Assembly (NCBI RefSeq): GCF_024648885.1
Contig: NZ_JANBBF010000012.1
Location: 248,001 to 312,000 of the forward strand
Direction of reading: 5' to 3'
Source of the DNA: Prauserella salsuginis
GTDB taxonomy: Bacteria; Actinomycetota; Actinomycetes; Mycobacteriales; Pseudonocardiaceae
DNA: 64,000 bases
How positions within the stretch are numbered: the first letter of the stretch is position 1; each line of letters opens with the position of its first letter. A model generated the notes under the pieces. It made no database searches. It had not been told where the DNA came from and saw only the letters and a program-made list of their open reading frames with translations. The position numbers and the translations under genes were made by a program. This document shows positions 4,520-22,068 of this stretch, piece after piece.

Positions 4520-4522
4520 ACG

Positions 4523-6343: not shown

Positions 6344-6937
6344 CTACGGGCGCCCGTGCGGTGTGGTTCCGGCGACGGTCGAGGCCGGACGGGCGGAAAT
6401 CGGGGTGAAGTCACAGGCGGCGTCGAACCAGCCGGAGTGCGGGTCGTCGAACGAACCCGTCCAGACGGATTCGGATGCAGGCGCCCCGACCTCGGCGAAC
6501 GTGCTGTCGGAGAACAGCAGCGGGGGACGCGCGGTGGTCTCCACGGCGGCGACCTCACCGAGGAACAGGAGGTGGTCGCCGCCGTCGTCGGTGCGTTGCG
6601 GTGTGCAGGAGAGGGTGGCGGCCGTGCCGGCCAGCACCGGTGCCGTGGGGCCGGGCGCCCACCGGATCGGGTCGGCCGACGGCCGACCCGCGAAGTTCAT
6701 CGCGACGTCGACCTGGTCGGCGGCGAGCACGTTGACCGCGAACGGGGCGCCGTCGAGGTAGCTGCAGGCTCGTGATGTGCGGGTCAGGGCGACGGTGATG
6801 AGCGGCGGGTCGAGCGAGACCGGCATGAACGCCGTCACCGTCGCCCCGTGCGGTTCGCCGTCGTTCGACCGGCAGGTGATCACGGTGACGCCGGTGGCGA
6901 ACCGGCCGAACGCCGTTCGCAGCGTCTTCGGATCCAT
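6344..6937 (-). CDS. hpaC: Flavin reductase family protein, partner of the HpaB-type oxygenase
   Basis: A 197-residue FMN-binding split-barrel flavin reductase. The N-terminal [18 protein letters not shown] and the following [16 protein letters not shown] match the HpaC/DIM6 flavin reductase domain. It uses NAD(P)H to supply reduced flavin to the oxygenase encoded directly downstream. A short C-terminal extension of about 30 residues (after about residue 165) is variable in this family. The gene is first in the two-gene unit, and its start faces the AraC-type regulator across 164 bases that must hold both promoters. Confidence 0.88.
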
Positions 6938-7101
6938 GGTTCCTCCAGCGGTGGGTGGGGCGTGTCTCGCCCTCGTCTGACGGGTGCCGCTGACCGTAGG
7001 CGCGTCCGTGCGCTGCGGCGATCCGCTCAGCGCAGCCGCTGTCCGCTTCCCGAAGTGCGATGTATCGTGTCGTGGATCACGTGCATTACCGGGAGGTGTC
7101 C

Positions 7102-8031
7102 ATGCCCACTGCTCGCGTCGCGACGTCCGCGGAGGAGCTGCGGGACTTCTCCGCGGCTGTGGCCGATGCCTACTTCCCCCACGAACTCACCGTGCTCCGC
7201 GACGGTGTCGGGCCCGCGGAGCTGCGCAAGGTCGATCTGGGGCCCGTGCGGCTGACCCGGATCGGATGGGGCGCCGAGGTGAGCGTGCGCTCGGACCATC
7301 CCGGCGGCTGGGCGGTGAACGTGCCGCGCAGTGGACTGCTCGATGCCCGGGTCAGCGGACGTTCCGTGTTGTCGCTGGAAGGGCAGGCGACCGTGTGCCC
7401 TCCCGACACGCAAACGTTGATGAGCCGCTGGTCGGCCGACTGTTCCATCCTCGGAATGCGGGTCGACGCGGAGTATCTCGCCGACGAACTCGTCGCGCTC
7501 GTCGGGCTCACCGCCCAGGACATGCCCGCTCAGCTGGACCTGCGCACCGAAGCGGCGCAAGCGTGGCTGGCGCTGCTCACCTCGATCGGAGCGCAGAGCC
7601 TCCGTTCGCCGGACCTGCTGGCGCGCCGCGCGGTGCGGGAGCGGTTGGGCGCCACGCTCACGGCGGCGTTCGTCACCGCCTGTTTCCCGGCCGAACCGGA
7701 GACCGGGGACGTCTGCCCGCGGATCGTCGCGCGGGTGGTCGACGCGATGGAGGCGGATCCGGCGCGGGCGTGGGGTTCGGCCGACATCGCGCGGTGCGCC
7801 GGGGTGGGCATCCGCCGGGTGCAGCAGAGCTTCCAACGCTATCGGGGTGAAACGCCGACGGAGGCGCTGCGCCGGATCCGGCTACGACGAGTGCACGAGG
7901 ACCTGCTGCACGACCGGGTGGAGACCGTTGCGGATGGGGCCACCCGGTGGGGTTTCATGCATCTGGGCCGGTTCGCGGCGGCCTACCGGCGGGAGTTCGG
8001 CGTCAGCCCGTCGGCGACGTTGCGCCGCTGA
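7102..8031 (+). CDS. AraC family transcriptional regulator
   Basis: A 309-residue regulator with an N-terminal AraC-binding-like ligand domain and a C-terminal double helix-turn-helix (ADIARCAGVGIRRVQQSFQR, then ATRWGFMHLGRFAAAYRREF). The ATG at 7102 is preferred over an in-frame ATG at 7060 because GGGAGG lies five bases before it. It is divergent from the flavin reductase/oxygenase pair, the usual arrangement for a local activator such as HpaA; control of that pair is inference. The downstream 150 bases, up to the convergent flavoprotein gene, contain no clear terminator or other feature that I can see. Confidence 0.85.
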   Translation: MPTARVATSAEELRDFSAAVADAYFPHELTVLRDGVGPAELRKVDLGPVRLTRIGWGAEVSVRSDHPGGWAVNVPRSGLLDARVSGRSVLSLEGQATVCPPDTQTLMSRWSADCSILGMRVDAEYLADELVALVGLTAQDMPAQLDLRTEAAQAWLALLTSIGAQSLRSPDLLARRAVRERLGATLTAAFVTACFPAEPETGDVCPRIVARVVDAMEADPARAWGSADIARCAGVGIRRVQQSFQRYRGETPTEALRRIRLRRVHEDLLHDRVETVADGATRWGFMHLGRFAAAYRREFGVSPSATLRR

Positions 8032-8181: not shown

Positions 8182-9648
8182 TCAGGCGACGGATCCCGCT
8201 CGGCGGCCGAAGACGATGCCGGCAGCCAGGCCGGAGCCGCCCGGGTAGTTCCCGCTGAACAGGCCGCCGCGAGCCTCGCCACACACGAGTAGCCCCTCGA
8301 TGGGAGTTCCGTTCTCGCGTAGTACTCGTCCATCGATATCGCCTTTCAACCCACCGAAAGTGAACGTGATACCGCAGGTCACGGGGTAGGCATAGAACGG
8401 AGGCGTCTCGATCGGCGCTGCCCAGTTCGATTTCGGCGGGTCGACATCGGCTCGGCGACCGTCTTTGATCGTCGGGTCGAACGTCCGGCTGCGGTCGATG
8501 GAGTCGTTGAAGGTCGTGACGGTGTCGGTGAAGCATTCCGGGTCGAGCCCCAGCCGGCGGCCCAGCTCGGGCACGGAGTCCGCGGTCACTTCGCTGATGC
8601 CGGGCATCTCGTACTCTTCGACCCGCAGGCTGGGGCGAAGACTCGCGTCGAAGACCTGGTACGCAACGCTGTCCGGTTGGGCCAGGATCTCGGCGCCGTA
8701 TTTGGCGTAGGTGTAGTTACGGAAGTCGGCTCCCTCGTCGAGGAAGCGTTCCGCGTTCCGGTTGACGATGATCCCCAACGGATAGCTCTGCCTGGTGAGC
8801 CGGTTGGTCAGCGCTCGGTTGGACTCGTTGCATCTGGTGAACGCATCCCATTGGACGCTGTGCGCGGTGGACCAGTCTCCGCCGCGTGCCGCTCCCAACC
8901 GGAGTGCGGCCAGGATCATGACGCCGTCGTTGTGCCGGGTGCCACGGACCTTCGCGTTCGCCCAGCCCGACCCGAGGTGGCGCTCCCTCATCTCGGCGTT
9001 CGCCTCGAAGCCGCCGGATGCGATCACGACACTGTCGCCGTGCAGCTCGTGCTCGCCCTCGTCGTCGGCATAAGCCACGCCGATGACCCGGTCGCCGTCG
9101 GTCAGGAGCCGGGTGACCGTCGCGCCGTAGCGGACCTCTTCGCCGAGGCGGCCCGCCACGGCAGTGTGGTCCGACATGAGCCCTTCGCCGCCGTCGACGT
9201 TGCCGACGTGCAGTCCGCCCCAGAACAGGTACGTGCCGTCGGGTCGCGTGTAAGCCTGTCGCTCGTACATGAGTCGGTAGCGCAGGCCCAAACCGTGCAG
9301 CCAGCGCACGCCGGAGGCGGCTTCGGTAACCAATGTGTCCGCCATGACAGGGTCGGTACGGCCTGCCGTGACCCGGTCGAGGTCCGCCCGGTACTCCGCT
9401 GCGTCGTACGGCGGGACGACCGTTCGAGCGTGGCGGTCATCGGGCTCGAGGATGTCGAGCAGATCGTCGAGGCCACCGTGTGCGATCCGGGTGGCGCCCG
9501 CCGTGAAGAACGAGTTTCCGCCCGCGTCGTCGAGTCGTCCCCGCTCGAGAATTACCACGCGACGTCCACGTTCGGTCGCGGCGTGCGCGGCCGAGAAGCC
9601 GGCGTTGCCGCCTCCGACCACGATGACGTCAGTGCGGGCAGCGGGCAT
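8182..9648 (-). CDS. FAD-dependent dehydrogenase, fumarate reductase / tricarballylate dehydrogenase (TcuA-like) family
   Basis: A 488-residue flavoprotein of the FAD_binding_2 family. The dinucleotide fold VIVVGGGNAGFSAAHAA opens the protein, followed by GGNSFFTAGATRIAHGGLDD, closely resembling TcuA, which oxidises tricarballylate to cis-aconitate; the C-terminal YPGGSGLAAGIVFGRRAG is the conserved FAD-binding end. Start at 9648 is set by an AAGGAG site. It is last in an operon with the IclR regulator and an asparaginase (34-base gap), so it probably belongs to the dihydroorotate/aspartate cluster. A dicarboxylate or amino-dicarboxylate substrate is plausible, but tricarballylate itself is only a family-based guess. 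Confidence 0.75.
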   Translation of the reverse strand: MPAARTDVIVVGGGNAGFSAAHAATERGRRVVILERGRLDDAGGNSFFTAGATRIAHGGLDDLLDILEPDDRHARTVVPPYDAAEYRADLDRVTAGRTDPVMADTLVTEAASGVRWLHGLGLRYRLMYERQAYTRPDGTYLFWGGLHVGNVDGGEGLMSDHTAVAGRLGEEVRYGATVTRLLTDGDRVIGVAYADDEGEHELHGDSVVIASGGFEANAEMRERHLGSGWANAKVRGTRHNDGVMILAALRLGAARGGDWSTAHSVQWDAFTRCNESNRALTNRLTRQSYPLGIIVNRNAERFLDEGADFRNYTYAKYGAEILAQPDSVAYQVFDASLRPSLRVEEYEMPGISEVTADSVPELGRRLGLDPECFTDTVTTFNDSIDRSRTFDPTIKDGRRADVDPPKSNWAAPIETPPFYAYPVTCGITFTFGGLKGDIDGRVLRENGTPIEGLLVCGEARGGLFSGNYPGGSGLAAGIVFGRRAGSVA

Positions 9649-9682
9649 GGCGGAACTCCTTGGGTCGAGTGGCCGTCCGGCA

Positions 9683-10675
9683 TCAGCGTTTCGGTGCCGG
9701 GGGAGGAGCGGGGAAGAGCTCGGCCGCCGGCGTGCCGGCTGACATCCCGAACAACAGGCGTAGCCGGGCTTTCGGCGGGGAAAGCGTGCCGGCGAAGTGC
9801 AGTCCCGCACGTCGTAGCTCCCGTTCCGAACCGGCACCGGCGTAGGTGTCGGCGAGAAGCGCACCGTCGGGACAACGGCTGGTCACGACGACGGGCTTGC
9901 CGGCCTCGGCACAGGCGACCAGCGCCGCGCCCAACGACGGCGAAACGTGCCCCGCACCGAGCGCGGCTACGACGAGACCGTCCACATCGGGTGTAAGCGC
10001 TTCCGCGGCCGACCCATCGATACCCGTTGCGGTGGGAAGGAGGCCGACGCGCACGGACGGCGCAGCGCGGCCGGGAAGAAGATCAGTGCCGGGTGGGGGA
10101 CCGAGAAGCAGTTCGAGTCGGTCTTCGGCGACGAATCCGACCGGGCCCGCCGCAGGGGAACTGAACGCCGCGATCCGAGTGCTGTGCATCTTGGTCACGA
10201 GCCGCGCGACGTGCACCTCGTCCTGGAACACGACGGTGGGCCCGTACGGTGCGAGATCAGGGACAGCGGCGGCGACGAGGGCGGCGCGGATGTTGGCGGG
10301 TCCGTCGGGGCCGGAATGATGGGGCGAACGCATGGCGCCGGTAATGACCACCGGGACTCGTGTTTCGACGAGAAGGCCGAGCGCGTAAGCGGTCTCTTCG
10401 AGTGTGTCCGTGCCATGGGTGACGACGACACCGTTGCTGCCCGCCGCGATCGCCTCCGTGACCGTGCTCGCGAGCGTCCACAGGTCGTCGGGTGTCATCC
10501 GGCGTGAGGACATGCCCAGTGCATCCCGGGGGACTACCTCGATCCCGTCCGGCAGATCGCCCGGTCGTGGAACCAGCTCACCGACGCCGCGGTGAGTTTG
10601 GCAGTCGGCCGATGGCGGAGCAACCGAGACGGTGCCGCCCGTGGCGATCAACGCGATCGAACGCGGTACGGCCAT
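9683..10675 (-). CDS. Asparaginase
   Basis: A 330-residue type I/II asparaginase. The first catalytic threonine lies in IALIATGGTVS near the N-terminus and the second in VVVTHGTDTLEETAY; both are diagnostic. The family hydrolyses L-asparagine to L-aspartate and ammonia, in the cytoplasm here because no signal peptide is visible. Its ATG shares one base with the stop of the iclR gene (TGATG), giving tight coupling to the regulator. Production of aspartate matches the proposed product of the neighbouring dihydroorotate route. It could act on another beta-amide; no sequence feature settles this. Confidence 0.88.
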   Translation of the reverse strand: MAVPRSIALIATGGTVSVAPPSADCQTHRGVGELVPRPGDLPDGIEVVPRDALGMSSRRMTPDDLWTLASTVTEAIAAGSNGVVVTHGTDTLEETAYALGLLVETRVPVVITGAMRSPHHSGPDGPANIRAALVAAAVPDLAPYGPTVVFQDEVHVARLVTKMHSTRIAAFSSPAAGPVGFVAEDRLELLLGPPPGTDLLPGRAAPSVRVGLLPTATGIDGSAAEALTPDVDGLVVAALGAGHVSPSLGAALVACAEAGKPVVVTSRCPDGALLADTYAGAGSERELRRAGLHFAGTLSPPKARLRLLFGMSAGTPAAELFPAPPPAPKR

Positions 10676-11454
10676 CAGGTGTGCACTTCCGGGTTGCCGA
10701 GTTCCGCGGACAGTCGATCGGCAGCGCGTTGCGCGGCGGCGGTCAGTCGTGCCCGGGTGTCGGAGTCGGCGGCACGTGAGCCTGGCGCGGTGACGGTGAC
10801 ACTGGAAAGTACACGGTCGTCGCCGTCGCGAATCGGTACCGACACGGCCCAAGCATCCGGATCGAGTTCGTTGTGGCAGACCGCGTAGCCGTTGTCACGG
10901 ACCTCCTTCAGTACGTGCATCACGTCGTCGACGCTGTGCGGAGTGCCGGACGTGTACTCGATCAGCGGTGAGCCTTCCAGCAAGGTTCGGACGACGTCCT
11001 CGTCCTGGTAGGCCAGGATGGCGCGGCTCGAAGCGGCGGCATGCAACGGCATCTGCTGGCCGATCCGGACGAACAGCCGCAACGCGTGATCGGCCTCCAC
11101 AATAGACACACATACGGGCGCGTCGCCGATGAACTCCGTCAGGAACACGGTCTCCCCGGTCTCGCCTGCTGCGTCGAGGAGTGCCGCGGGTGGCTTCACC
11201 AGCCGCGCACTGTGCGATCCGGAACCGCCGGACAGCGCCCGCGCGGCGCGTCCGATGAAGTACCGCTTCGTCACAGGGGAGCGACGCAGGTAGTCAGCCT
11301 GGCTGAGCGTGGTGAGGATGCGGTGAAGACTGCCGAGTGGAATGTCGAGATCGTCGTGCAGTTCCTGCAAGGTCAGGCCGGAACGTGCGGCGCCGACCGC
11401 ATTGAGTACTTCCACGCTGCGGACGATGACCTCGAGGGGTCGTGTGGCGCTCAT
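10675..11454 (-). CDS. IclR family transcriptional regulator
   Basis: A 259-residue regulator with an N-terminal winged helix (LTLQELHDDLDIPLGSLHRIL) and a C-terminal IclR effector-binding domain (CHNELDPDAWAVSVPI region). It is divergent from the large catabolic operon beginning at 11672 and heads its own operon with the asparaginase and flavoprotein. The 217-base divergent region contains a perfect palindrome (11604-11623) and a matching half-site (11497-11505); a near copy precedes the dihydroorotate dehydrogenase gene. This makes it the likely local regulator of the whole cluster. The effector is unknown; orotate, dihydroorotate or carbamoyl-aspartate are natural candidates. Confidence 0.9.
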   Translation of the reverse strand: MSATRPLEVIVRSVEVLNAVGAARSGLTLQELHDDLDIPLGSLHRILTTLSQADYLRRSPVTKRYFIGRAARALSGGSGSHSARLVKPPAALLDAAGETGETVFLTEFIGDAPVCVSIVEADHALRLFVRIGQQMPLHAAASSRAILAYQDEDVVRTLLEGSPLIEYTSGTPHSVDDVMHVLKEVRDNGYAVCHNELDPDAWAVSVPIRDGDDRVLSSVTVTAPGSRAADSDTRARLTAAAQRAADRLSAELGNPEVHT

Positions 11455-11496
11455 CGGCTGGCTCTCCTCCCATGGTGATCGTGTTCGGTGCGCGGT

Positions 11497-11505
11497 CTTT
11501 CCACT
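11497..11505. promoter_or_regulatory. Candidate IclR half-site
   Basis: CTTTCCACT here is identical to one arm of the palindrome at 11604-11623. It lies 42 bases upstream of the iclR start codon, a sensible place for autoregulation. The second arm is not recognisable. Confidence 0.4.
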
Positions 11506-11560
11506 GCTGCCGCCGTTCGTCGGCGCCTGCGGCGATCCTATGGGACCTGCCCGGTCCGGG

Positions 11561-11602
11561 TTGACAACGCCGTTGACGATCCTCCAGGCTTCAGCCTACC
11601 TG
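11561..11602 (+). promoter_or_regulatory. Candidate promoter of the ornithine cyclodeaminase-family operon
   Basis: A consensus TTGACA at 11561-11566 is followed by a second TTGACG at 11573. The -10 is weak: TACCTG at 11597 lies 18 bases after the second hexamer. The palindrome at 11604 would overlap the transcription start. The first hexamer plus seven bases (TTGACAACGCCGT) recurs with one change at 15481, at nearly the same distance from the second operator. Confidence 0.4.
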
Positions 11603-11603
11603 A

Positions 11604-11623
11604 AGTGGAAAGCACTTTCCACT
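11604..11623. promoter_or_regulatory. Perfect palindromic operator, probable IclR site 1
   Basis: Two nine-base arms, AGTGGAAAG and CTTTCCACT, are separated by CA. The site lies 48 bases upstream of the 11672 start codon and just downstream of the candidate -10. A degenerate copy lies at 15522-15541 and a single arm at 11497-11505, all inside the cluster. Confidence 0.65.
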
Positions 11624-11671
11624 GTCCTTCTCATGGTGCTACACGACGTCAGCGCCGTCGGAAAGGGATCT

Positions 11672-12706
11672 ATGCCGCGGATTCTGAACGATCGCCATGT
11701 CGATCAGCTGCTGCCGCCTGCTGCTGCGCTCACCGATGTGCGCACGGCCTTCGAGCTACTCGCAGCGGGCGAGGCACAGGACGAACCACGGCGGCGGACA
11801 GGCGCGGGGACGGTGACGCTCAACGTCATGTCGGCGATCGTGCCCAAGCTCGACGCGATCGCGGTGAAGTCGTATCCGGTGGTGCGATCCGGCACCAACC
11901 GCGGAAGCGTCATCACCCTGGTGCTCTACTCCGTCGAAACAGGAGCGGTTCGAGGTGTGCTCCAGGCCGACCTGCTCGGCCGTCGACGGACGTCCGCGGC
12001 CTCGGCACTCGCTACCCAGGCAATGGCCCGGACCGACAGTTCGACGGTGTGTCTGCTGGGAACGGGCTTTCAGGCACCAGCACAGATCGCGGCTCTCGTG
12101 GAGGTCATGCCGCGTGTGCGGACAGTACTCGTCGTCGGGCGGAACGTGGACCGAGCGGCAGCCGTAGCCGCCGGGCTCCGTGAGGCGTATCCCTGGCTGC
12201 ACATCGAATCCGGGGACAGGCCGGAACGTGCAGTTCCACGCGCCGACGTCGTGATCACCGCGACAGGCGCGACCGAGCCGCTCTTCGACGGTGCGCTGCT
12301 GCGACCCGGTACGCACGTCAACGCGGTCGGCAGTAATCACGCCCAACGCCGCGAGCTCGACAGCACGACTCTTCGGCGCGCGAACTGCGTGGCTGTGGAT
12401 TCGGCTGCGGTTGCCCGGCTCGAGTGCGGTGACCTACTGGCGAACGGTCTGGATCCGCGGATGGCCGTCGAATTCGCCGACATAGTGGTCGGTGCGACGC
12501 GCGGGCGGGAGAACGAGGACGACATCACGGTGTTCGAGTCGCACGGGCTCGCTGTCCAGGACCTGGTGTGCGCGATGCGAGTGGTCGGCGCAGCGGCCGA
12601 AGCGGAACTCGGTTCGGTCGTTTACCTGGGAGGCGAGCCGGATGCAGGGGAGGGCGCAGTCGTGCACCAGCACGATTCGGAACAAGGTCAGAGGAGAAAC
12701 GCATGA
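11672..12706 (+). CDS. Ornithine cyclodeaminase / mu-crystallin family protein
   Basis: A 344-residue NAD(P)-dependent protein. K66 in AIAVKSYPV and the GRRRTSAASALA segment match the substrate-binding core, and CLLGTGFQAPAQIAAL (from about residue 127) is the Rossmann nucleotide loop. Members include ornithine cyclodeaminase, alanine dehydrogenase and the iminosuccinate reductase BhcD. Because the neighbours can make aspartate, an aspartate/iminosuccinate-type oxidoreductase is an attractive but unproven role. The start at 11672 has AAAGGGA upstream. It is the first gene of the plus-strand operon and overlaps the dihydroorotase gene by four bases. Confidence 0.85.
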   Translation: MPRILNDRHVDQLLPPAAALTDVRTAFELLAAGEAQDEPRRRTGAGTVTLNVMSAIVPKLDAIAVKSYPVVRSGTNRGSVITLVLYSVETGAVRGVLQADLLGRRRTSAASALATQAMARTDSSTVCLLGTGFQAPAQIAALVEVMPRVRTVLVVGRNVDRAAAVAAGLREAYPWLHIESGDRPERAVPRADVVITATGATEPLFDGALLRPGTHVNAVGSNHAQRRELDSTTLRRANCVAVDSAAVARLECGDLLANGLDPRMAVEFADIVVGATRGRENEDDITVFESHGLAVQDLVCAMRVVGAAAEAELGSVVYLGGEPDAGEGAVVHQHDSEQGQRRNA

Positions 12707-14118
12707 GGTTGCACATCGCCAACGGTCGACTGGTCACACCGGCGGGCATGCTCGACAGCGATCTATTGTGTACGGACGGGGTCATCTCGGCGATCCTCGA
12801 CCGGGGAGCGGATGTCGAAGCCGACCAGCGATACGACGCCGAGGGCATGCTGGTGTTCCCCGGGTTCATCGACCCTCACGTGCACTCCCGCGACCCCGGG
12901 ATGAGCCACAAGGAGGACTTCGACCACTCCACGCGTGGCGCCCTCGTCGGTGGCGTGACGACGGTCCTGGAAATGCCCAATGCGATACCACCGGTGGACT
13001 CGGTCGAGGTGTTCGAGGAGCGTCGCCGTCAGCACGAACGGTCGGCGTGGACGGATTTCGGCCTCTGGGGTCTCGCGCTCGGGGATGCCAACATCGACCA
13101 GATCGGCCCGATGTTCGATGCGGGCGCCGTTGCGGTGAAGTTGTTCTGGGGCTATGCACTGCACCGTGAAACCCGCTCGCTCGTGTACAACATCGGCGAC
13201 GAGAAGCCGGAGAACCTGCTGATGCCGCCGCCGAACGGTCAGGTGCTGCAGTTGTTCGCCGAGGTGGCCAAGCACGGCGGTCTCCTTGCGGCGCACTGCG
13301 AGGACAAGGATGTCCTGGCTTCGAGTCAGGAGGCACTCGGTCATCCCATCGAGACCTACGAGGACTTGCTCGCGGCGCGTCCGGCGGTGGCGGAGGCAAC
13401 GACGATCTCGATCGCGGCTCAGTTCGCCAAGGAAACCGGATGCCGGTTCCATGTGGTGCATCTGGCCTCGGAGAGGGGTCTCGACGCCGTGCGGTCGGCA
13501 CGGCGCAACGGGATCTCGGTCAGTGCCGAGACGTGCCCGCAGTACCTGACGCTGACCGACGCGGACTACCCGCGAGTCGGGCCGGTGATGAAGGTGTATC
13601 CGCCGGTTCGTGCGCAGCAGGATCAGGACGCGTTGTGGTCCGGCCTGAACGATGGGCTGATCTCGTCGCTCGGGTCAGACCACGCGCCGCACACGGTGGA
13701 GGAGAAGGCGCGGGGATTCGAGACCCAGCCTGCGGGCGCGGTCGGCTGCGAGACCTTCGGCCCGGTGCTGCTGGATGCGTTGTCACGTGGCAGGACGACG
13801 CCGGAGCGACTCGCCGAGGTGGCCGCTACGGATACCGCCAAGTTCTACGGCCTGTACCCGCGCAAGGGAGTCATCCGGCCGGGAAGTGACGCGGACCTGG
13901 TTATCGTCGACCCGGAATCGCGCAGGACGGTACGGAACGAGGAACTAGTCGCCAAACAGCCGGTCAGTCCGTGGAACGGGTTCGAACTGCGCGGCGGGCC
14001 AGTGGCCACGGTGCTGCGCGGCGAGGTTGTCGTGCGCGACGGCGAGGTCGTCGGTGAACGACAGGGACGGTTCATCCGCGCCGACCACTCCGCGGCTGCA
14101 CAGCGGGCGGACGCGTGA
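12703..14118 (+). CDS. pyrC: Dihydroorotase (probably catabolic paralogue)
   Basis: A 471-residue cyclic amidohydrolase that interconverts dihydroorotate and N-carbamoyl-L-aspartate. Metal ligands are visible as H59 and H61 (DPHVHSRDPG), the carbamylated lysine K146 (GAVAVKLFWG), H198, H253 and D326 (GSDHAPH). R63 and N93 (MPNAIPP) correspond to the residues that hold the substrate carboxylate in dihydroorotases; allantoinases and dihydropyrimidinases lack this pair, which argues for dihydroorotate. It is not beside pyrB, carA or carB, as the biosynthetic copy is in actinobacteria, but beside a class 1B dehydrogenase and a carbamoyl-amino-acid hydrolase. GAGGAGA precedes the ATG, which overlaps the previous stop by four bases. 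Confidence 0.85.
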   Translation: MRLHIANGRLVTPAGMLDSDLLCTDGVISAILDRGADVEADQRYDAEGMLVFPGFIDPHVHSRDPGMSHKEDFDHSTRGALVGGVTTVLEMPNAIPPVDSVEVFEERRRQHERSAWTDFGLWGLALGDANIDQIGPMFDAGAVAVKLFWGYALHRETRSLVYNIGDEKPENLLMPPPNGQVLQLFAEVAKHGGLLAAHCEDKDVLASSQEALGHPIETYEDLLAARPAVAEATTISIAAQFAKETGCRFHVVHLASERGLDAVRSARRNGISVSAETCPQYLTLTDADYPRVGPVMKVYPPVRAQQDQDALWSGLNDGLISSLGSDHAPHTVEEKARGFETQPAGAVGCETFGPVLLDALSRGRTTPERLAEVAATDTAKFYGLYPRKGVIRPGSDADLVIVDPESRRTVRNEELVAKQPVSPWNGFELRGGPVATVLRGEVVVRDGEVVGERQGRFIRADHSAAAQRADA

Positions 14119-15452
14119 GTTCGCCGCACAGCCTTACGGCTGGGATGCGGGAAGCTGTCACCCAGGCCTGCGCACTTGCAGGCGAACCACTCGAGGACGA
14201 CGTGCGGCGCCACGCCACGCATGTCGTCGCCGATACCGTCGGTGTCGCCATCGCCGGCGCGGGCACCGCCGAGATGGCGAGGCTACGCGAGGTCGGTGAC
14301 GGATTCGGCTCGGCACCGGCCTCCGGCGCGGCCACGGTCCTGGCCGAAAAGCCCCGCTTCGCATCCCCGGAGGATGCGGCGTTCCTGAACGCCACAGCAG
14401 GTAGCTTTCTCGAACTGGATGAGGGAACTCGGCCGACCGGTCATCCCGGGATGCACATCGTTCCGGCAGCCTTCGCCGTCGCCGAGGCGGCACATCGTTC
14501 CGGCGCCGAGCTGTTGGCGGCCGTTGTCGCCGGGTACGAGGTCAGCGCGCGGCTTCTCACCGCGTTCCGATTATCACCGCCGACGCATCCGCACGGCCAT
14601 CTCGGCGGCGTCGGGGCGGCCGTGAGCACGGCTCTGCTGCTCGGCGAGGATCCAGTCGGGGCTGCGGCCATCGCGGCGACGACTCCGGTGATTCCGGTAT
14701 GGGACGCGTGCTACGCCGGAGCGACAGCCCGCAACACCGCGATGGGGTTGGCAGCGCAGTCGGCGGTGCGGTCGATTCGCCTGCTCCGGGCGGGATTCAC
14801 CGGCACGCTGGAATCCGTGCCGGCGCTCTTCGGCGAAGTGACAGGGCGAGCGGTCGACGTCGATGCGCTGGCCGAACCCCGCGATCCGGTGCGGCCGAGG
14901 ATCATGCGGAACTACTTCAAGCGGCACAGCGCCTGTGCCCTGACGCACGGAGCCGTGGACGCGGTGCTGTCATTGCCGCCGATGCGCGTGGCGGACATCG
15001 AGGGCGTCGAAGTCCGGACGGTCGCCAACAACATCAAACTCGACCGTCAGCCGGCCCCGAACGATCTGTCAGCCCGATTCTCGCTTCCCTATGCAGTGGC
15101 GGCCGCGTTGGCTCGTCGCACATCGACGGTCGGGACGTTCGATTACGAGCCCGAGATCGCTCGGCTCGCCGGCACGGTCGAGGTCACGGTCGCTCCGGAG
15201 TTCGAGCGGCGATGGCCGGACCACGCGCCGGCCGAGGTGATCGTGCGTACTCGCGATAAGACCTTGTCCGCCGCGGTCGACGACCCGCGCGGGCATCACC
15301 ACGATCCGTTGTCGGGAGAAGAGCTGCGGCGGAAGTTCACCGGCTTGGTCGGCACGGTCGGTGAACCGTTGTGGGAACGGTTCATGGCACTTCACGAGAC
15401 CGCCGATTGCGCCGAGGTGCTCGATCCGTTGCGGACACAGTCGGTCACGTAG
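14115..15452 (+). CDS. MmgE/PrpD family protein
   Basis: A 445-residue member of the MmgE/PrpD fold, which includes 2-methylcitrate dehydratase, cis-aconitate decarboxylase and iminodisuccinate epimerase. Recognisable segments are ADTVGVAIAGAGTAEM near the N-terminus, FLNATAGSFLELDEGTRPTG, where the family usually has a His/Asp-containing loop, and NYFKRHSACALTHGAVDA. GTG at 14115 overlaps the dihydroorotase stop by four bases (GTGA), so it is coupled to that gene. Its reaction in this cluster is unknown; a di- or tricarboxylate lyase, or an epimerase of an aspartate-like compound, would fit the context. Confidence 0.82.
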   Translation: MSSPHSLTAGMREAVTQACALAGEPLEDDVRRHATHVVADTVGVAIAGAGTAEMARLREVGDGFGSAPASGAATVLAEKPRFASPEDAAFLNATAGSFLELDEGTRPTGHPGMHIVPAAFAVAEAAHRSGAELLAAVVAGYEVSARLLTAFRLSPPTHPHGHLGGVGAAVSTALLLGEDPVGAAAIAATTPVIPVWDACYAGATARNTAMGLAAQSAVRSIRLLRAGFTGTLESVPALFGEVTGRAVDVDALAEPRDPVRPRIMRNYFKRHSACALTHGAVDAVLSLPPMRVADIEGVEVRTVANNIKLDRQPAPNDLSARFSLPYAVAAALARRTSTVGTFDYEPEIARLAGTVEVTVAPEFERRWPDHAPAEVIVRTRDKTLSAAVDDPRGHHHDPLSGEELRRKFTGLVGTVGEPLWERFMALHETADCAEVLDPLRTQSVT

Positions 15453-15480
15453 CCGACGCGTTACGGCCTTGTGGCGGGTC

Positions 15481-15541
15481 TTGACACCGCCGTAGGTGCG
15501 GGAGAAGCTCACCTTCTTCGGAGTGAAAAGAGGTTTCCACT
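15481..15541 (+). promoter_or_regulatory. Internal promoter with second probable IclR operator
   Basis: The 89-base gap before the dehydrogenase gene holds a consensus TTGACA (15481-15486) and an imperfect palindrome at 15522-15541: AGTGAAAAG, AG, GTTTCCACT. It matches the perfect site at 11604-11623 at 16 of 20 positions. The TTGACA to operator offset is 41 bases here and 43 there. The AGAGG ribosome site of the next gene lies within the palindrome, so bound repressor could block transcription. Confidence 0.55.
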
Positions 15542-16522
15542 TTGCTGTCAATGAGGATGGCCGAAGCGAACGGTGCTGGAGCGCCTGTAGGCGCCAGCTG
15601 CCGGAGCGAACTCGCAGTGGAACTCGGCGACCTGGAACTGGCCAATCCCGTGATGCCTGCATCCGGCTGTTTCGGCCCGGAACTCGCGGAACTGACGCCG
15701 GTCGACACGCTCGGGGCGGTGGTCACCAAGACGGTGTTCGCCCAGAGCCGACCTGGCAATCGGACGCACCGGATCACCGAGGTGCCCGGCGGCATGCTGA
15801 ACAGTGTCGGTATCCCGAGTCGTGGAACGACGGTGTTCCGCGACTCGGGACTCGGTGGGTACGCGGGCCTCGGCGCTCCCGTCGTGATCAGCATCGGTGG
15901 ACTGTCCGCGCAAGAGTATTGGCAGGTCGTGGACGAGCTCGGGGCGTGTGAGCACGCTGCTGTCGAGGTGAACGTGTCGTGCCCGAACCTCGAGCACGGG
16001 GGCGCGACGCTGGACACGGATCTGGATGCGATGACCCATGTGGTGTCCGGAGTTGTGGCCCGCAGTACCAAGCCGGTCCTGGTGAAGCTCAGTCCGCAAC
16101 TCCACGGCATGGCCGCTGCCGCCCGGGCGGCGCAGGACGCCGGTGCGACAGCCGTCACGGTGTGCAACAGCTTTCCCGCCATGGCCGTGAACGCGAACAG
16201 TCGCGCGTCCGAATTGGGCAACGGGACCGGTGGGCTCTCCGGGCCGTCGGTCAAACCTCTCGCGTTGCGGCTCGTCTGGACCGCGGCGCAGGCCGTCGAC
16301 ATCCCGGTCGTCGGTTGCGGCGGCATCGGATCCGCCGACGACGTGGCGGAATTCCTCATCGCAGGGGCGACGGCAGTTCAGGTCGGCACCGCGACGTTCG
16401 CTCAGCCGGACGTCATGCCCCGGATCATCGGCGAACTTCCCGCGCTCACGGAGCGGCTCGGTGCGGAGCGGATCGCCGATCTCATCGGCACACTCACCAT
16501 CCGATCGGAGGATTGGCAATGA
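15542..16522 (+). CDS. pyrD: Dihydroorotate dehydrogenase, class 1B catalytic subunit
   Basis: A 326-residue TIM-barrel FMN enzyme interconverting dihydroorotate and orotate. C147 in EVNVSCPNLEHGG is the class 1 catalytic cysteine (class 2 enzymes have serine), and TKT near residue 63 and VLVKLSPQ supply the expected lysines. It lacks the C-terminal ferredoxin domain of PreA-type dihydropyrimidine dehydrogenase. The TTG at 15542 has AGAGG eight bases upstream; ATGs at 15551 and 15557 are alternatives. The PyrK-type partner is encoded at 19581. Actinobacteria normally make pyrimidines with a quinone-linked class 2 enzyme, so an NAD-linked 1B enzyme here points to orotate reduction for degradation; that is inference. 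Confidence 0.88.
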   Translation: MLSMRMAEANGAGAPVGASCRSELAVELGDLELANPVMPASGCFGPELAELTPVDTLGAVVTKTVFAQSRPGNRTHRITEVPGGMLNSVGIPSRGTTVFRDSGLGGYAGLGAPVVISIGGLSAQEYWQVVDELGACEHAAVEVNVSCPNLEHGGATLDTDLDAMTHVVSGVVARSTKPVLVKLSPQLHGMAAAARAAQDAGATAVTVCNSFPAMAVNANSRASELGNGTGGLSGPSVKPLALRLVWTAAQAVDIPVVGCGGIGSADDVAEFLIAGATAVQVGTATFAQPDVMPRIIGELPALTERLGAERIADLIGTLTIRSEDWQ

Positions 16523-17814
16523 GCAACGACGATGCCGGCGTCGCCGGCGGGCGCACCGTGGGTGACAACCCGGACACGACAGCCGATGGTGAACCGACGG
16601 AGGTCACGCCATACGGACGCAAAGCGGTGTTCGGCGCAACCATCGGGTATGCGATGGATGGCTACGACCTCCAGATTCTGGGTTTCGCGCTGCCCGCGAT
16701 CACGATGAGCCTCGGCCTGTCGGACACCGAGGGTGGACTGCTGGCCACCATCACCTTGATCGGTACCGTGACCGGCGCGATGTTCTTCGGCGCCCTCGCC
16801 GACAGATTCGGACGCGTGCGCATCCTGACGTACTCGATCCTCTTGTTCGCGATCTTCACCGGACTCACGGCGCTGTCACAGGGATTCACCGAGTTGGCGA
16901 TCTTCCGCTTCATCGCGGGAATGGGCATCGGTGGTGAGTTCGGTATAGGCATGGCTCTGGCGGCAGAGGCATTCCCTGCGATAAAGCGGGCACGGGCGAC
17001 ATCCTGGGTCGGTGTCGGCTTCCAGCTCGGGGTGCTGCTGGCCGCGTTCCTGTCGGCACCCGTGATCTCGTTGTGGGGATGGCAGGGCCTGTTCATCATC
17101 GGAATCTTCCCCGCGGTGGTCGCGATCGTGCTGCGGCTGCGCCTGGCCGAGCCCGATGCGTTCGTCAAACAGCGTGCCAAGGTCGAGGCCGGGGAGAAGC
17201 AGAAGAACCCGTATCGCCTGTTGGTGGCCGACGCGAAGACGACGCGCACGAGCATCGGCATCGTCATCATCTGCTCGATCCAGAACTTCGGCTACTACGG
17301 CATCCTCACGTGGCTGCCGACGTACCTGTCCGGCCAGCTCGGGCTGAGCATGACCAACTCCGGTCTCTGGACCGCGGTGACCGTGCTCGGCATGATCGCC
17401 GGAATCATGATCTTCGGGCACCTCGCGGACCGTATCGGTCGACGGTACGCCTTCTGGATCTTCCAGGCCGGCGCATTCGTGTCGCTCTTCGTTTACAGCC
17501 AACTGACGTCACCGCTGGCCGTACTCATCGGCGGGGCGGTCATGGGTGTCTTCGCCAACGGCATGCTCGGCGGGTACGGCGCGGTCATCGCGGAGAACTA
17601 TCCGACCGCGGCCCGCGCCACGGCGCAGAACGTCCTTTTCGGTATCGGACGTGGTGTCGGCGGGTTCGCCCCACTCGTCGTCGCCCTCGTCGCGGGTTGG
17701 CAGGGGTTCGCGGCGGCGTTGGGATTCCTCGCGCTGATCTACATCGTCGACATGCTCGCCATGCTGCTGATTCCCGACCGGCGTGGTCAACAGCTCGACC
17801 ATGCCGTGGCGTGA
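16519..17814 (+). CDS. MFS transporter, aromatic acid:H+ symporter-like
   Basis: A 431-residue major facilitator with about twelve membrane segments beginning near residue 38. The DGYDLQILGFALP segment in the first helix and GALADRFGRVR between helices 2 and 3 are typical of the AAHS group (PcaK/BenK-like), which carries aromatic and related carboxylates with protons. A 35-residue hydrophilic N-terminus precedes the first helix. It overlaps the dehydrogenase stop by four bases. Orotate, a planar ring carboxylate, is the predicted cargo from context only. Confidence 0.85.
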   Translation: MSNDDAGVAGGRTVGDNPDTTADGEPTEVTPYGRKAVFGATIGYAMDGYDLQILGFALPAITMSLGLSDTEGGLLATITLIGTVTGAMFFGALADRFGRVRILTYSILLFAIFTGLTALSQGFTELAIFRFIAGMGIGGEFGIGMALAAEAFPAIKRARATSWVGVGFQLGVLLAAFLSAPVISLWGWQGLFIIGIFPAVVAIVLRLRLAEPDAFVKQRAKVEAGEKQKNPYRLLVADAKTTRTSIGIVIICSIQNFGYYGILTWLPTYLSGQLGLSMTNSGLWTAVTVLGMIAGIMIFGHLADRIGRRYAFWIFQAGAFVSLFVYSQLTSPLAVLIGGAVMGVFANGMLGGYGAVIAENYPTAARATAQNVLFGIGRGVGGFAPLVVALVAGWQGFAAALGFLALIYIVDMLAMLLIPDRRGQQLDHAVA

Positions 17815-17854
17815 ACTCCAACGGATCGTCCTTCGAAGTGGGAAAGCGAGAACT

Positions 17855-18331
17855 ATGTCGAACCCGACCGGCCCGGCTACCGCGCTGCGCGCGCTGGGAG
17901 TCGCGGCGGACACGTACGGACCGACGATCAATGCATCACGGTCACCACGCGATGTGGAAGCGCTCGGCCGAGTGCTCGCCGAGTCGTTGTCCGACTCGCG
18001 ACCGCAGAAGCTGGTGGTGTGGAGTACCTGTGATGACGCCGTGCTCGCGCACGTCGTCGCGGTACGACTCGGTATTTCCGTGACGCGCGCATCGGAGGTC
18101 GAGGGCATCCTGACCTTCGACGAGCCGTTCTCGCCGGGAACCCGCGTGGCTCTGGTGGCCACACAGTGGGCCGGACGGCGGCTGGCGACGCTACGCCGGT
18201 TCGTGACCGGACAGGGCGGCGAGGTGGTCGCACTGGGAGCGGTTATCGCATCGGAATCCCTCGACGCCGCAGGCGACGTGCCAGCGACGGCGCTGGTCCC
18301 GGCTCGGGAAGCGAAGGAGGTCGTGACGTGA
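17855..18331 (+). CDS. Degenerate orotate phosphoribosyltransferase-like protein
   Basis: A 158-residue protein that resembles the core of phosphoribosyltransferases: a strand-loop near residues 52-60 (KLVVWSTCDDAVLA) and a second region, GTRVALVATQWAGRRLATL (residues 95-113), aligned with the PRPP-binding loop. In active enzymes this loop reads roughly VVDDVVTTG; here both acidic residues and the TTG are gone, so PRPP binding is unlikely. It may bind orotate or a pathway intermediate as a sensor or scaffold. The ATG at 17855 has only a weak ribosome site (GGAAAGCGAG), and its stop overlaps the next gene by four bases. The fold call is mine by eye and less certain than for its neighbours. Confidence 0.55.
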   Translation: MSNPTGPATALRALGVAADTYGPTINASRSPRDVEALGRVLAESLSDSRPQKLVVWSTCDDAVLAHVVAVRLGISVTRASEVEGILTFDEPFSPGTRVALVATQWAGRRLATLRRFVTGQGGEVVALGAVIASESLDAAGDVPATALVPAREAKEVVT

Positions 18332-19584
18332 CGTCGCTGACCGCGGACCACGTTCGGCTGGGTGAGCTCATCGACACGTTCGCAGGAGTGTCTGAAAGAG
18401 ACACATCACCCGGCGTCACACGGCTCGCCTATACGCCGGTCGAACGCGCGGCCCACGACCTGTTCGCCGAGTGGATGTCGTCGCTCGGCTTGACAGTGTG
18501 GATCGACGCTGCGGGAAACACGCTCGCCGAGCGCGCCGGTACCGATTCCGGACTGCCGGCGATCGGTACCGGGTCGCATCTGGACAGTGTGCCGCACGGG
18601 GGAGCATTCGACGGGGTCGTCGGTGTGTGTGCCGCCATGGAAGCAGCACGCTTACTGGTCGAGCACGACGTGCCGCACCGACATCCGATGCGCTTCGTCG
18701 TGTTCGCCGGCGAGGAAGGGGCACGTTTCGGTCAGGCATGTACCGGTAGCCGGATCGTGGCCGGGCTGACCGGGACCGTCGACCTCCCGGAGAAGCGCGA
18801 TGCAGCGGGTGTGAGTCTCGCGGACGCCATGGTCGAAGTCGGCTTCGATCCGGCCGCGGTGGAACAGGCCCGGTGGTCCGGTGAGGACTGGGCCGGGTTC
18901 GTCGAGCTCCACATCGAACAAGGAAGTGTCCTCGAAACGGAGAACGTGCGCCTTGGCGTCGTCGATACGATCTCCGGCAGCACCCGACTTCGGCTGCAGC
19001 TCACCGGCCGAGCGACGCACAGTGGTGGGACCCCGATGCACCTGCGTGCCGATGCGATGGCAGCGGCGGCCGAGGTCGTCCTGCTCATCGAGTCATTGGC
19101 TGCGGGTGAGGGGAACATCGGGACTCGCACAACGGTCGGCAAGATCGACGTGACTCCGGGATCGATCACTACCATCGCCGGTCGTGCGTCGTTGTGGGTC
19201 GACGTCCGCGGCACGGATGCGGATCACCAGCGAAACACGGCGCAGGAGATCGTCACCCAGGCGGCGGCGGTCTGTGCCCGTCGCGGCGTCGGGTTCGAAC
19301 ACGAGCAGCTTGCGGACACGCCGCCGGTCCGGTTGCCGGACGCCGTTCGTGACGAGCTCGCGGAGTCGTGCCGCGCTGTCGGAGTCGAGCCGCGTGTGCT
19401 GACCAGCGGTGCCAGTCACGACGCGCAACAGATCAACAACGTGATACCGACCGGGATGATGTTCGTCCCGAGCAAGGCCGGGATCAGCCATGACCCGGCC
19501 GAGTGGACCAGTGTCGAGGACATCGCGCTCGGCACGACCGCACTGACGACCAGCCTCATCCGGTTGGATGCGGGTCTGTCATGA
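18328..19584 (+). CDS. Zn-dependent N-carbamoyl-amino-acid amidohydrolase (hydantoinase/carbamoylase family, M20)
   Basis: A 418-residue member of the M20 amidase family that hydrolyses N-carbamoyl amino acids, ureidosuccinate or allantoate to the amine, CO2 and ammonia. Metal ligands are visible at H84 and D95 (GSHLDSVPHGGAFDGVVGV) and at E129/E130 (FAGEEGARF), with ELHIEQG further on. The GTG start has AAGGAGG upstream and overlaps the previous stop by four bases. Beside a dihydroorotase the obvious substrate is N-carbamoyl-L-aspartate, giving L-aspartate; this is inference from context, since the family signature does not distinguish substrates. Confidence 0.88.
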   Translation: MTSLTADHVRLGELIDTFAGVSERDTSPGVTRLAYTPVERAAHDLFAEWMSSLGLTVWIDAAGNTLAERAGTDSGLPAIGTGSHLDSVPHGGAFDGVVGVCAAMEAARLLVEHDVPHRHPMRFVVFAGEEGARFGQACTGSRIVAGLTGTVDLPEKRDAAGVSLADAMVEVGFDPAAVEQARWSGEDWAGFVELHIEQGSVLETENVRLGVVDTISGSTRLRLQLTGRATHSGGTPMHLRADAMAAAAEVVLLIESLAAGEGNIGTRTTVGKIDVTPGSITTIAGRASLWVDVRGTDADHQRNTAQEIVTQAAAVCARRGVGFEHEQLADTPPVRLPDAVRDELAESCRAVGVEPRVLTSGASHDAQQINNVIPTGMMFVPSKAGISHDPAEWTSVEDIALGTTALTTSLIRLDAGLS

Positions 19585-20399
19585 CCGCTGCCGGAGTACT
19601 GGACGTCCTTGCCGGAGACCGTTCCCGGCCCCGGTGTGAACAGGTCTCGGTGGTGGTGAACAGAGAGCTGTCCGACCGCTATCGCCTACTGCGATTCCGT
19701 TCCGCGGCGATCTCCGAACGGGCCCGCGCCGGCCAGTTCGTCATGCTCGGCCCGCTCGGACGATCGGCACCGGTGCTGCCACGGCCGATGGCGATCTACA
19801 CCCGTGACGCCGATGCCGGAGTGGTCGACATCGTCTATGGCGTTGTCGGGTACGGGACGCGGGCCCTGGCGGAGATGACCGAAGGCGATTTGCTGGCGGT
19901 CACCGGGCCCTTGGGGCGTGGGTTCGTGATCGAGGAGGGAGTCGAGCGGGTACTGCTCGTCGGCCGCGGTGTGGGCATCTGCGCGATGACGACGGTGGCC
20001 CAGGATTTGGCTCCGACATCGGTGCAGGTGACCGCGGTGCTCAGTGGCCGGAACCGGGAGTCGGTCCTTGGTCAGGACGTGCTCCGCGACTGCGGGGCGG
20101 ACGTTCTGAACGTGACCGATGCCAACGGCAGCAGCGCCGTCGACGCGGTACGTGAACGGCTGGTGCGAAGGTTCGACGACGATCCTCCGCAGCAGATCCT
20201 GACGAGTGGCTCAGAACGTTTGACACGGTTGGCGGCCGACCTCGGGGCCCGATGGAACGCGAGGACACTGGTGTCGGTCGAGGCGCACATGGCGTGTGGG
20301 CTCGGCTATTGTCACGGATGTGCGGTAGGGAACGGCGACGGAGCCACCGAGGCTCCCCTCGTGTGCCGAGATGGTCCGGTGTTCGGGCTGCGGGTCTGA
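19581..20399 (+). CDS. pyrK: Dihydroorotate dehydrogenase electron-transfer subunit (PyrK type)
   Basis: A 272-residue FAD and 2Fe-2S protein of the ferredoxin-NADP reductase superfamily. The FAD motif LPRPMAIY (about residues 66-73), the nucleotide-binding loop LLVGRGVGICAM and the cluster cysteines C239, C244, C247 and C262 in MACGLGYCHGC and VCRDGPVF are all present and in the PyrK pattern. It links NAD(H) to the FMN subunit encoded at 15542 and so allows orotate reduction by NADH. The genes are separated by the transporter, the phosphoribosyltransferase-like and the amidase genes, unusual for a pair that forms one complex. It overlaps the amidase stop by four bases and ends the operon. 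Confidence 0.88.
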   Translation: MTAAGVLDVLAGDRSRPRCEQVSVVVNRELSDRYRLLRFRSAAISERARAGQFVMLGPLGRSAPVLPRPMAIYTRDADAGVVDIVYGVVGYGTRALAEMTEGDLLAVTGPLGRGFVIEEGVERVLLVGRGVGICAMTTVAQDLAPTSVQVTAVLSGRNRESVLGQDVLRDCGADVLNVTDANGSSAVDAVRERLVRRFDDDPPQQILTSGSERLTRLAADLGARWNARTLVSVEAHMACGLGYCHGCAVGNGDGATEAPLVCRDGPVFGLRV

Positions 20400-21369: not shown

Positions 21370-22068
21370 CTAGGCCGCGCCGGCGAGAACGTGCCGGTTG
21401 AACAGGTCCGGGAGCGTGAGCAGATCCGGGATCTCGAAATACGGCTGGTAGGAGGAACTCCCGGGAAAGCCGTAGCGGTTGATCCAGACCCTGCGGATGC
21501 CGTACTGCTTGGTCGGCATGATGTCGTAGTCCCATCCCTGCGCAACGTGTGTGACGAGGGACGGGTCGCGGTCGATCACCGAGAACAGGTGGTCGAAGGC
21601 CCCACGCCGGGGCTTGTACCAGCCGGCGTCCTCGGCGGTCACGACGTAGTCGAAGTCGACACCGATGGTGCGGACATGGTGCCGGATGAAGTCGTTGTCG
21701 GAGTTGCTGATGATCGCCAACTGGACCCCGGACGCCTTCAGCGTTTCCAGGGCATCCGGAACTTCGGGGAAGACCGGGAAACGCCGGGCCTCGTCGAGCA
21801 GTTGTTCGGCGAACTCCGGACGATACCGCGCACCGTGCATCACCATGCAGCATTCCAGTGTGTCGGCGACGATGTCCTGGTACCGCGTGTACGGACCCTG
21901 CGCGACCGCGTGGAATCGCATCACCCGAAGATTGTCGAGAAACGTCCAGTGGTCGATCCCGACCTCGTCCAACGTGTCGCGGACAATGGGCAGGGTGGCC
22001 CGATTGAGGTCGAAGTCGATCAGCGTGCGATAGCAGTCGAATGTGGCGATAGGGCTGGTCTTCGACAT
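21370..22068 (-). CDS. HAD superfamily hydrolase, haloacid dehalogenase type II-like
   Basis: A 232-residue HAD protein. The nucleophile aspartate is in FDCYRTLIDF at the N-terminus, where type II dehalogenases usually read FDxYGT; the third motif lysine is in DAGWYKPRRGAF. The usual C-terminal DxxGA motif is replaced by QGWDYDIMPTKQYGI, so the activity may differ from 2-haloacid dehalogenation and a phosphatase role is possible. It is the last gene of the N-methyl amino acid operon, 47 bases after the sarcosine-oxidase-like gene. Its metabolic contribution is unclear. Confidence 0.8.
   Translation of the reverse strand: MSKTSPIATFDCYRTLIDFDLNRATLPIVRDTLDEVGIDHWTFLDNLRVMRFHAVAQGPYTRYQDIVADTLECCMVMHGARYRPEFAEQLLDEARRFPVFPEVPDALETLKASGVQLAIISNSDNDFIRHHVRTIGVDFDYVVTAEDAGWYKPRRGAFDHLFSVIDRDPSLVTHVAQGWDYDIMPTKQYGIRRVWINRYGFPGSSSYQPYFEIPDLLTLPDLFNRHVLAGAA

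Follow-up and report, generated by a model that had tools for sequence, protein, structure and literature searches.

What might a bacterium gain from a compact set of genes of pyrimidine families that is accompanied by its own regulator and carrier? This question is raised by a locus of Prauserella salsuginis, which lies in the 64-kb stretch of DNA analysed here (the window; 68.3% GC, C5:248001-312000, from a genome of 5.64 Mb in 15 contigs). Eight plus-strand genes at 11672-20399 constitute an operon, encoding in order an ornithine cyclodeaminase/mu-crystallin family protein (OCD), a cyclic amidohydrolase, an MmgE/PrpD family protein, a dihydroorotate dehydrogenase (DHODH), a carrier of the major facilitator superfamily (MFS), a phosphoribosyltransferase-fold protein termed PrtB, an M20 hydrolase and a PyrK-type subunit; the span becomes 11604-20399 when the first putative operator is included. 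Of the seven junctions between OCD and PyrK, five are 4-bp overlaps and the other two are gaps of 98 bp (MmgE-DHODH) and 40 bp (MFS-PrtB); the genes for an IclR-type regulator, an asparaginase-like protein and a TcuA-like flavoprotein are divergently arranged on the opposite strand. The locus is likely to be an inducible operon for orotate utilization, in which orotate would be converted via dihydroorotate and N-carbamoyl-aspartate into aspartate. Its principal features are listed below.

10675-11454, minus strand: IclR-type regulator (PF01614/PF09339)
11561-11566, plus strand: TTGACA, putative -35 element of the OCD promoter (from sequence)
11604-11623, no strand: palindromic putative operator 1, AGTGGAAA-N4-TTTCCACT, 0 mismatches (palindrome search)
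12703-14118, plus strand: cyclic amidohydrolase, dihydroorotase-like (TIGR00857 295.9 bits, cut-off 279.05; residues)
15481-15486, plus strand: TTGACA, putative -35 element of the DHODH promoter (from sequence)
15522-15541, no strand: palindromic putative operator 2, 1 mismatch, ahead of DHODH
15551-16522, plus strand: dihydroorotate dehydrogenase, class 1B type, PyrD-like (family models, residues, tree)
16519-17814, plus strand: MFS carrier, proposed orotate importer (PF07690 above cut-off)
17855-18331, plus strand: PrtB, phosphoribosyltransferase-fold protein without the phosphoribosyl pyrophosphate (PRPP) motif (structure model and Foldseek)
18328-19584, plus strand: M20 N-carbamoyl-amino-acid hydrolase, proposed N-carbamoyl-aspartate hydrolase (TIGR01879 and PRK09290.1-5 above cut-off)
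19581-20399, plus strand: PyrK-type FAD/2Fe-2S electron transfer subunit (PF10418 39.3 bits, cut-off 23.9)

Gene content, distribution and the biosynthetic genes

A preliminary description of this DNA had read the DHODH, PyrK, dihydroorotase-like amidohydrolase, M20 and MFS genes, together with the divergent IclR gene, as a cluster for aerobic orotate degradation. All of these genes are recovered by family models, and the residues it had named are correct, namely C147 of the DHODH (counted from a TTG start), C239, C244, C247 and C262 of PyrK, and R63 and N93 of the amidohydrolase. The core of its gene list was thus right, but the list omitted OCD, MmgE/PrpD, PrtB and the two putative operators.

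The DHODH, PyrK and dihydroorotase-like enzymes belong to biosynthetic families, so that the operon might be conceived as a second set for pyrimidine biosynthesis or salvage, running towards orotate. This explanation is very improbable, since the genome harbors its biosynthetic genes elsewhere: pyrB lies outside the operon (TIGR00670, 282 bits, cut-off 237), a canonical dihydroorotase gene adjoins it (PRK09357.1-1, 738 bits, cut-off 538), and a quinone-type DHODH is encoded on another contig (NF003652, 451 bits, cut-off 267). The presence of a hydrolytic M20 carbamoylase within the operon and the linked carrier and regulator also speak against it, as does the lack of pyrB, carAB and pyrF among the operon genes, which the preliminary description had claimed and for which family models found no counterexample. 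The same description had held that these would be the biosynthetic copies if the genome lacked any other pyrC or pyrD; with a canonical pyrC and a quinone-type DHODH elsewhere, that assignment was rejected.

The cluster is sparse: within the family of this bacterium a PrtB profile matched 25 of 390 genomes, and within its class 5 of 394 (its own genome is counted in both figures, and some matches are weak). A DHODH scan of 84,980 species genomes yielded three loci, of which two carry the cluster: L009 of Streptomyces sulphureus DSM 40104 and L011 of Pseudoclavibacter, both actinobacteria. The comparison set comprises 28 loci, that is, the window and 27 of 28 mapped loci, L094 having been dropped (phosphoribosyltransferase match with E 2e-4, no cluster neighbours); weak phosphoribosyltransferase matches in L065, L066, L089 and L090 lie outside the mapped loci. 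The complete core, defined as DHODH, PyrK, M20, cyclic amidohydrolase, IclR and PrtB together, is present in 20 of the 28 loci, including those of S. sulphureus and Pseudoclavibacter. Conserved co-occurrence, which the preliminary description had suggested looking for, is therefore observed, indicating that the grouping of these genes is not due to chance.

Some details qualify these counts. The PrtB match of L011 reaches only 44 bits, and G731, the genome of L112, was counted as complete with its DHODH and MFS genes further up the L112 contig, in L121. An MFS gene occurs in 17 of the 20 complete loci; the remaining three (L014, L110 and L111) lack it and carry an ATP-binding cassette (ABC) transporter together with a uridine-phosphorylase-like gene. 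The core is incomplete in eight loci, namely L013, L095, L096, L092, L093, L100, L113 and L114, of which L093 and L100 are situated on truncated contigs. Three main gene orders were distinguished; the order of the window, with OCD and MmgE, is found in ten loci that have the asparaginase-like gene, and L109 is alike without all three of these accessory genes.

The proposed route and its regulation

In the proposed route, orotate would be imported by the MFS carrier and reduced to dihydroorotate by an NADH-fed complex of the PyrD-like and PyrK-like proteins. The amidohydrolase would subsequently open the dihydroorotate ring to give N-carbamoyl-aspartate, from which the M20 enzyme would free aspartate, CO2 and ammonia. 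We infer the substrate and the direction from protein families and gene order.

For the first step, the DHODH exceeds the cut-off of NF005574 (301.3 bits, cut-off 269), though not that of TIGR01037, and its start may be either ATG at 15551 (323 aa, with the SCPN cysteine at C144) or TTG at 15542 (C147). Its Lys, Asn-x-x-Gly, SCPN, Lys and Asn align with PyrDB of L. lactis, and these PyrDB-type residues are retained in all 19 cluster rows; the four Fe-S cysteines of PyrK are likewise in place. The complex would be expected to interconvert orotate and dihydroorotate in an NAD(H)-linked reaction. In trees that include 30 further PyrK/PyrD pairs from the class, the cluster DHODHs (18 rows) form one group with support of 100/99, and the cluster PyrKs (21 rows) form one group with support of 100/100, where the comparison pairs are the best PF10418 matches with an adjoining DHODH, assumed to be biosynthetic, and where the long rows L011, L032 and L010 leave the fine placement unsure. 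L010, which has the DHODH-PyrK pair only, was used solely as an ungrouped tree row, and L112, although counted as complete, was omitted from the DHODH tree. The DHODH match of L105 (7580-8465) is split over two frames, which reflects either a genuine change or an error of sequencing; this row was omitted from the DHODH tree and retained in the residue alignment.

For the ring-opening step, the amidohydrolase possesses H59, H61, R63, N93, K146 and DHAPH at 326-330, its K146 corresponding to an Arg in the canonical PyrC of the genome. The Arg, Asn and DHAPH elements of dihydroorotase bind the substrate carboxylate. All 12 window-type amidohydrolases retain them, and the HxH metal site is present in the window enzyme as well. 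In other loci the slot is filled by a PyrC-like dihydroorotase with 27-30% identity (first three compared), in which the same three elements occur in 13 of 13 sequences and the first metal His is absent in three. The genome's own PyrC holds the full set, its allantoinase only the Asn, and its dihydropyrimidinase none. That two different amidohydrolases share these elements in one slot suggests selection for dihydroorotase activity. The three sequences with the altered metal site are the dihydroorotase-like proteins beside PrtB in L013 (9893-11326), L095 (10811-12256) and L096 (8157-9593), where the first His of HxH has given way to another residue (DLRAH) and seven residues near the altered motif are absent; each is probably a conserved pseudo-dihydroorotase.

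The M20 protein scores above the TIGR01879 cut-off (385.4 bits, cut-off 204), its nearest solved structure is an N-carbamoyl-L-amino acid hydrolase (3n5f), and hydrolysis of N-carbamoyl-aspartate is its proposed function; a plasmid search with it matched 1,244 records, all below 60% identity. The nearest model of the carrier is the aromatic acid/H+ symport family TIGR00895 (307.6 bits, below the cut-off of 418.55), and thus a heteroaromatic carboxylate would suit it better than uracil.

With regard to regulation, the linked IclR gene and a palindrome near the promoter are both present. The divergent IclR protein would repress two promoters, each followed immediately by a palindrome of the form AGTGGAAA-N4-TTTCCACT to which it would bind; orotate or an intermediate of the route would release it. 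Operator 1, ahead of OCD, has the spacer GCAC (AGTGGAAA-GCAC-TTTCCACT), and its exact 12-base core TGGAAANNNNTTTCCA occurs once in the 5.64-Mb genome, at this very site (exact-match search only). Allowing up to 3 mismatches, two palindromes were found in the window versus 0.04 expected. At up to 2 mismatches, all 11 window-type loci have operator 1, and all of them but L101 have operator 2 (10 of 11). TTGACA starts 43 and 41 bases upstream of operators 1 and 2, respectively, a spacing at which a bound repressor would mask the predicted transcription start; on the OCD side the TTGACA is present in 10 of 11 homologous intergenic regions and absent from L109.

Among all 28 loci, no palindrome at up to 2 mismatches was found upstream of DHODH outside the window-type loci. 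When the region upstream of DHODH was examined for perfect inverted repeats of 7 bases in eight loci of other gene order, none was shared beyond L110/L111. A 2-mismatch palindrome precedes the phosphorylase-like gene in L014 and the ABC binding-protein gene in L013 and L095. Moreover, 1-mismatch palindromes occur near an ABC transporter gene start in L013 (5291), L095 (6217) and L096 (14095), and these suggest a related IclR site there.

Phosphoribosyltransferase-fold genes

PrtB, which the preliminary description had passed over, gave zero matches in Pfam and among 72,556 plasmid records, and its trace match to a PyrE model (TIGR01367) has E=0.0066 with 16.1 bits, far under the cut-off of 150.25. 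Its motif region reads VALVATQWAGRR, in which the PRPP-binding motif is gone. A structure model built from three sequences (mean predicted local distance difference test score, pLDDT, of 69) retrieved 206 PDB matches at E<=0.001, led by the hypothetical protein HP1257 and followed by adenine/purine phosphoribosyltransferases, with orotate ones from rank 38. In 18 of the 20 complete loci (all but L011 and G731) PrtB immediately precedes M20, and in the window the two genes overlap by 4 bp.

A second small gene adjoining PrtB, termed PrtA, is present in 12 loci, which are most of those with the PyrC-like dihydroorotase. PrtA of L093 (1111-1725) is an orotate phosphoribosyltransferase (OPRTase) by model (TIGR00336, 127.4 bits versus a cut-off of 106.8), and that of L112 (5983-6600) is OPRTase-like (82.5 bits, below the same cut-off) with the motif VEDVVVTG; the PRPP motif is lost in 7 of 9 aligned PrtA rows. 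Since the comparison of PrtB and PrtA profiles is weak (probability 37%, E 0.00036), an OPRTase origin of PrtB is argued from context and fold.

PrtB, a disabled phosphoribosyltransferase-fold protein, is probably descended from an OPRTase. Like PyrE, it has the phosphoribosyltransferase fold, and the PrtA of L093 even scores as PyrE; unlike PyrE, PrtB and most aligned PrtA rows lack the PRPP-binding motif, and these motif-less proteins are therefore unlikely to be catalytic OPRTases. PrtB has probably been retained for binding, either of orotate or of a partner enzyme, and not for the synthesis of orotidine monophosphate (OMP). An OPRTase, which uses orotate, inside the cluster favours orotate as the cluster substrate, and its decay weighs against a nucleotide-making role. 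A bolder and rather doubtful proposal is that PrtA and PrtB constitute a new pseudo-phosphoribosyltransferase family, which would have arisen in orotate-degrading operons from a working OPRTase and would now serve as sensors that bind orotate or as allosteric subunits of the catabolic enzymes. If this were true, the cell would choose between synthesizing uridine monophosphate (UMP) from orotate and burning orotate. The series of decaying OPRTases also offers a test case for the turning of an enzyme into a binding protein.

Rival substrates, accessory genes and known systems

Orotate catabolism is the best available reading because it is in line with the linked regulator and putative operators, the separate biosynthetic copies, a carrier nearest to a carboxylate symporter family (below cut-off), the Arg/Asn/DHAPH elements in both amidohydrolases and the OPRTase relatives in the cluster. 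Several results nevertheless weigh against it. The DHODH falls narrowly under the TIGR01037 cut-off (263.6 bits versus 270), PyrK is under all NCBIfam PyrK cut-offs (best 119.8 versus 220), and, according to a published study, dihydrouracil oxidases also have a DHODH-like conserved active site (PMC10395836), so the DHODH substrate is not settled by sequence. The top NCBIfam model of the amidohydrolase is allantoinase AllB (TIGR03178, 325.4 bits, below the cut-off of 357.85), none of the dihydroorotase equivalog cut-offs is reached among the 25 models listed, its nearest solved structure is an L-hydantoinase, and it is not an orthologue of canonical PyrC. The fold search with PrtB does not single out orotate phosphoribosyltransferases. 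In L013, L095 and L096, PrtB is accompanied by a PyrC-like protein, but DHODH, PyrK and M20 are all missing from the locus, and no cluster-type DHODH was found elsewhere in these three genomes. Finally, a uridine-phosphorylase-family gene stands just upstream of DHODH in L014 (6942-7721), L110 (6558-7346) and L111 (6503-7291), which could point to uracil. For these reasons, namely the ambiguous DHODH-like site, the non-orthologous amidohydrolase and the three overlooked operon genes, the catabolic claim of the preliminary description is borne out in part.

Uracil or thymine would be degraded by the same three-step logic in a reductive pathway, in which the DHODH-like enzyme reduces uracil, the amidohydrolase is a dihydropyrimidinase and the M20 protein a beta-ureidopropionase. 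DHODH-like enzymes acting on dihydrouracil do exist, as the same study indicates (PMC10395836), and the quinone DHODH is the only other DHODH or dihydropyrimidine dehydrogenase (DPD)-type protein that PF01180 finds above cut-off in the genome. The phosphorylase-like gene, which overlaps DHODH by 4 bp in L014 and L110 (as starts were called) and has divergent ABC transporter genes beside it, could encode a uridine, orotidine or other nucleoside phosphorylase, its L013 homologue scoring 170.7 bits with TIGR01718, below the uridine phosphorylase cut-off of 280.3; an NMT1-type ABC transporter (family taken from the L013 homologue) lies near DHODH in the same three loci. Despite this, the uracil pathway is unlikely: the amidohydrolase carries Arg/Asn/DHAPH and misses the dihydropyrimidinase cut-off (TIGR02033, 282.2 bits versus 393.25), the genome has distinct genes for an allantoinase and for a dihydropyrimidinase, each scoring above its cut-off (the latter with 590 bits), the DHODH retains the PyrDB residues, and OPRTase relatives and a carrier nearest to carboxylate symporters accompany it.

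A further explanation emerges from the accessory genes, which, together with a looser neighbour, are the following.

8182-9648, minus strand: TcuA-like FAD dehydrogenase (NF006130 522 bits, cut-off 369)
9683-10675, minus strand: asparaginase-family protein, accessory, on the IclR strand (PF00710/PF17763)
11672-12706, plus strand: ornithine cyclodeaminase/mu-crystallin family protein, OCD, accessory (PF02423)
14115-15452, plus strand: MmgE/PrpD family protein, accessory (family models; nearest solved structure cis-aconitate decarboxylase, then IDS-epimerase)

An accessory module is made up of the genes for OCD, MmgE/PrpD and the asparaginase-like protein, the last being present in 10 of the 11 loci of the window gene order. 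The cluster might thus serve the catabolism of another carbamoyl or hydantoin carboxylate, such as 5-carboxymethylhydantoin, N-carbamoyl-D-aspartate or an iminodisuccinate-like compound, with MmgE/PrpD as an epimerase and OCD as an amino-acid/imino-acid oxidoreductase. Consistent with this are the L-hydantoinase nearest to the amidohydrolase, the IDS-epimerase among eight solved matches of the MmgE protein, the iminosuccinate reductase BhcD among the weaker OCD matches and BhcR as the top IclR match (117 bits, cut-off 350), both below cut-off, as well as the occurrence of OCD and MmgE in 11 of 12 loci with the window-type amidohydrolase. The top NCBIfam model of OCD is PRK08618 (173 bits, below the cut-off of 417), and its nearest solved structure is a Delta1-pyrroline-2-carboxylate reductase (6t3e). 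Such a role is improbable, as L109 has the same amidohydrolase and an otherwise complete core without OCD, MmgE and asparaginase, and a DHODH-PyrK redox pair would be needless for these substrates. In an orotate operon of the window type, OCD, MmgE and the asparaginase-like protein might handle the aspartate end of the route or a wrong stereoisomer.

The TcuA-like gene was considered for the core and rejected, being found in 3 of 28 loci (window included), although in several loci the flank covered past the asparaginase gene amounts to no more than about 1.6 kb; it is loosely linked to the cluster and probably not part of its core. Beyond it, an HpaB/HpaC-like two-component monooxygenase pair and an AraC-type gene (4726-8031) adjoin the cluster in the window, and AraC (named from sequence) and part of HpaC do so in the same-genus locus L012. 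On the other side (21370-25372) are HAD-type dehalogenase-like, amino-oxidase-like and mycofactocin-type old yellow enzyme (OYE)-like genes, which also lie by the cluster in L012 with about 81-93% identity. In L092, which is without DHODH or PyrK, a UbiD-family decarboxylase gene (3663-5141; TIGR00148, 382 bits) is located near those for PyrC-like, M20, PrtA and PrtB proteins, and the mixed cluster version of G731 is accompanied in L112 by a TRZ/ATZ-type deaminase-like amidohydrolase (748-2292; under every cut-off shown), together with an ABC-type ATPase.

If orotate is indeed the substrate of this cluster, the orotate catabolism worked out biochemically in the 1950s gains a testable gene set with a predicted regulator and operator, in bacteria with a named Streptomyces strain among them, and the biosynthetic DHODH-PyrK and dihydroorotase families would be seen to have settled as a separate catabolic lineage. 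This would bear on annotation, where genes of this sort readily receive the names pyrD, pyrK and pyrC in error. No description of an orotate catabolic gene cluster was recognised among the matches listed from the open-licence literature of PubMed Central (PMC), a scope outside which most subscription papers fall. The route from orotate to aspartate itself is already known, and the phosphoribosyltransferase-like genes are the part most worth testing.

Among known systems, the hydantoin/ergothioneine modules (ErtD, ErtE) likewise combine a cyclic amidohydrolase with an M20 carbamoylase, the ErtE model giving 369 bits on M20, below its cut-off of 520; the present operon differs by the added DHODH-PyrK pair, and its amidohydrolase scores 260 with ErtD versus a cut-off of 650. 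Aerobic bacterial use of orotate, to which the proposed operon would be akin, was reportedly described in biochemical terms by Reynolds, Lieberman and Kornberg in 1955. Orotate fermentation by Clostridium (Zymobacterium) oroticum is said to have been reported by Lieberman and Kornberg in 1953-54. In the clostridial route, an NAD-linked DHODH converts orotate into dihydroorotate, which passes through N-carbamoyl-aspartate (ureidosuccinate) to aspartate, the same course as is proposed here. The likeness is drawn at the level of the route. The locus described here differs in being a conserved operon with an IclR regulator, an MFS carrier, phosphoribosyltransferase-fold and accessory genes and an M20 hydrolase.

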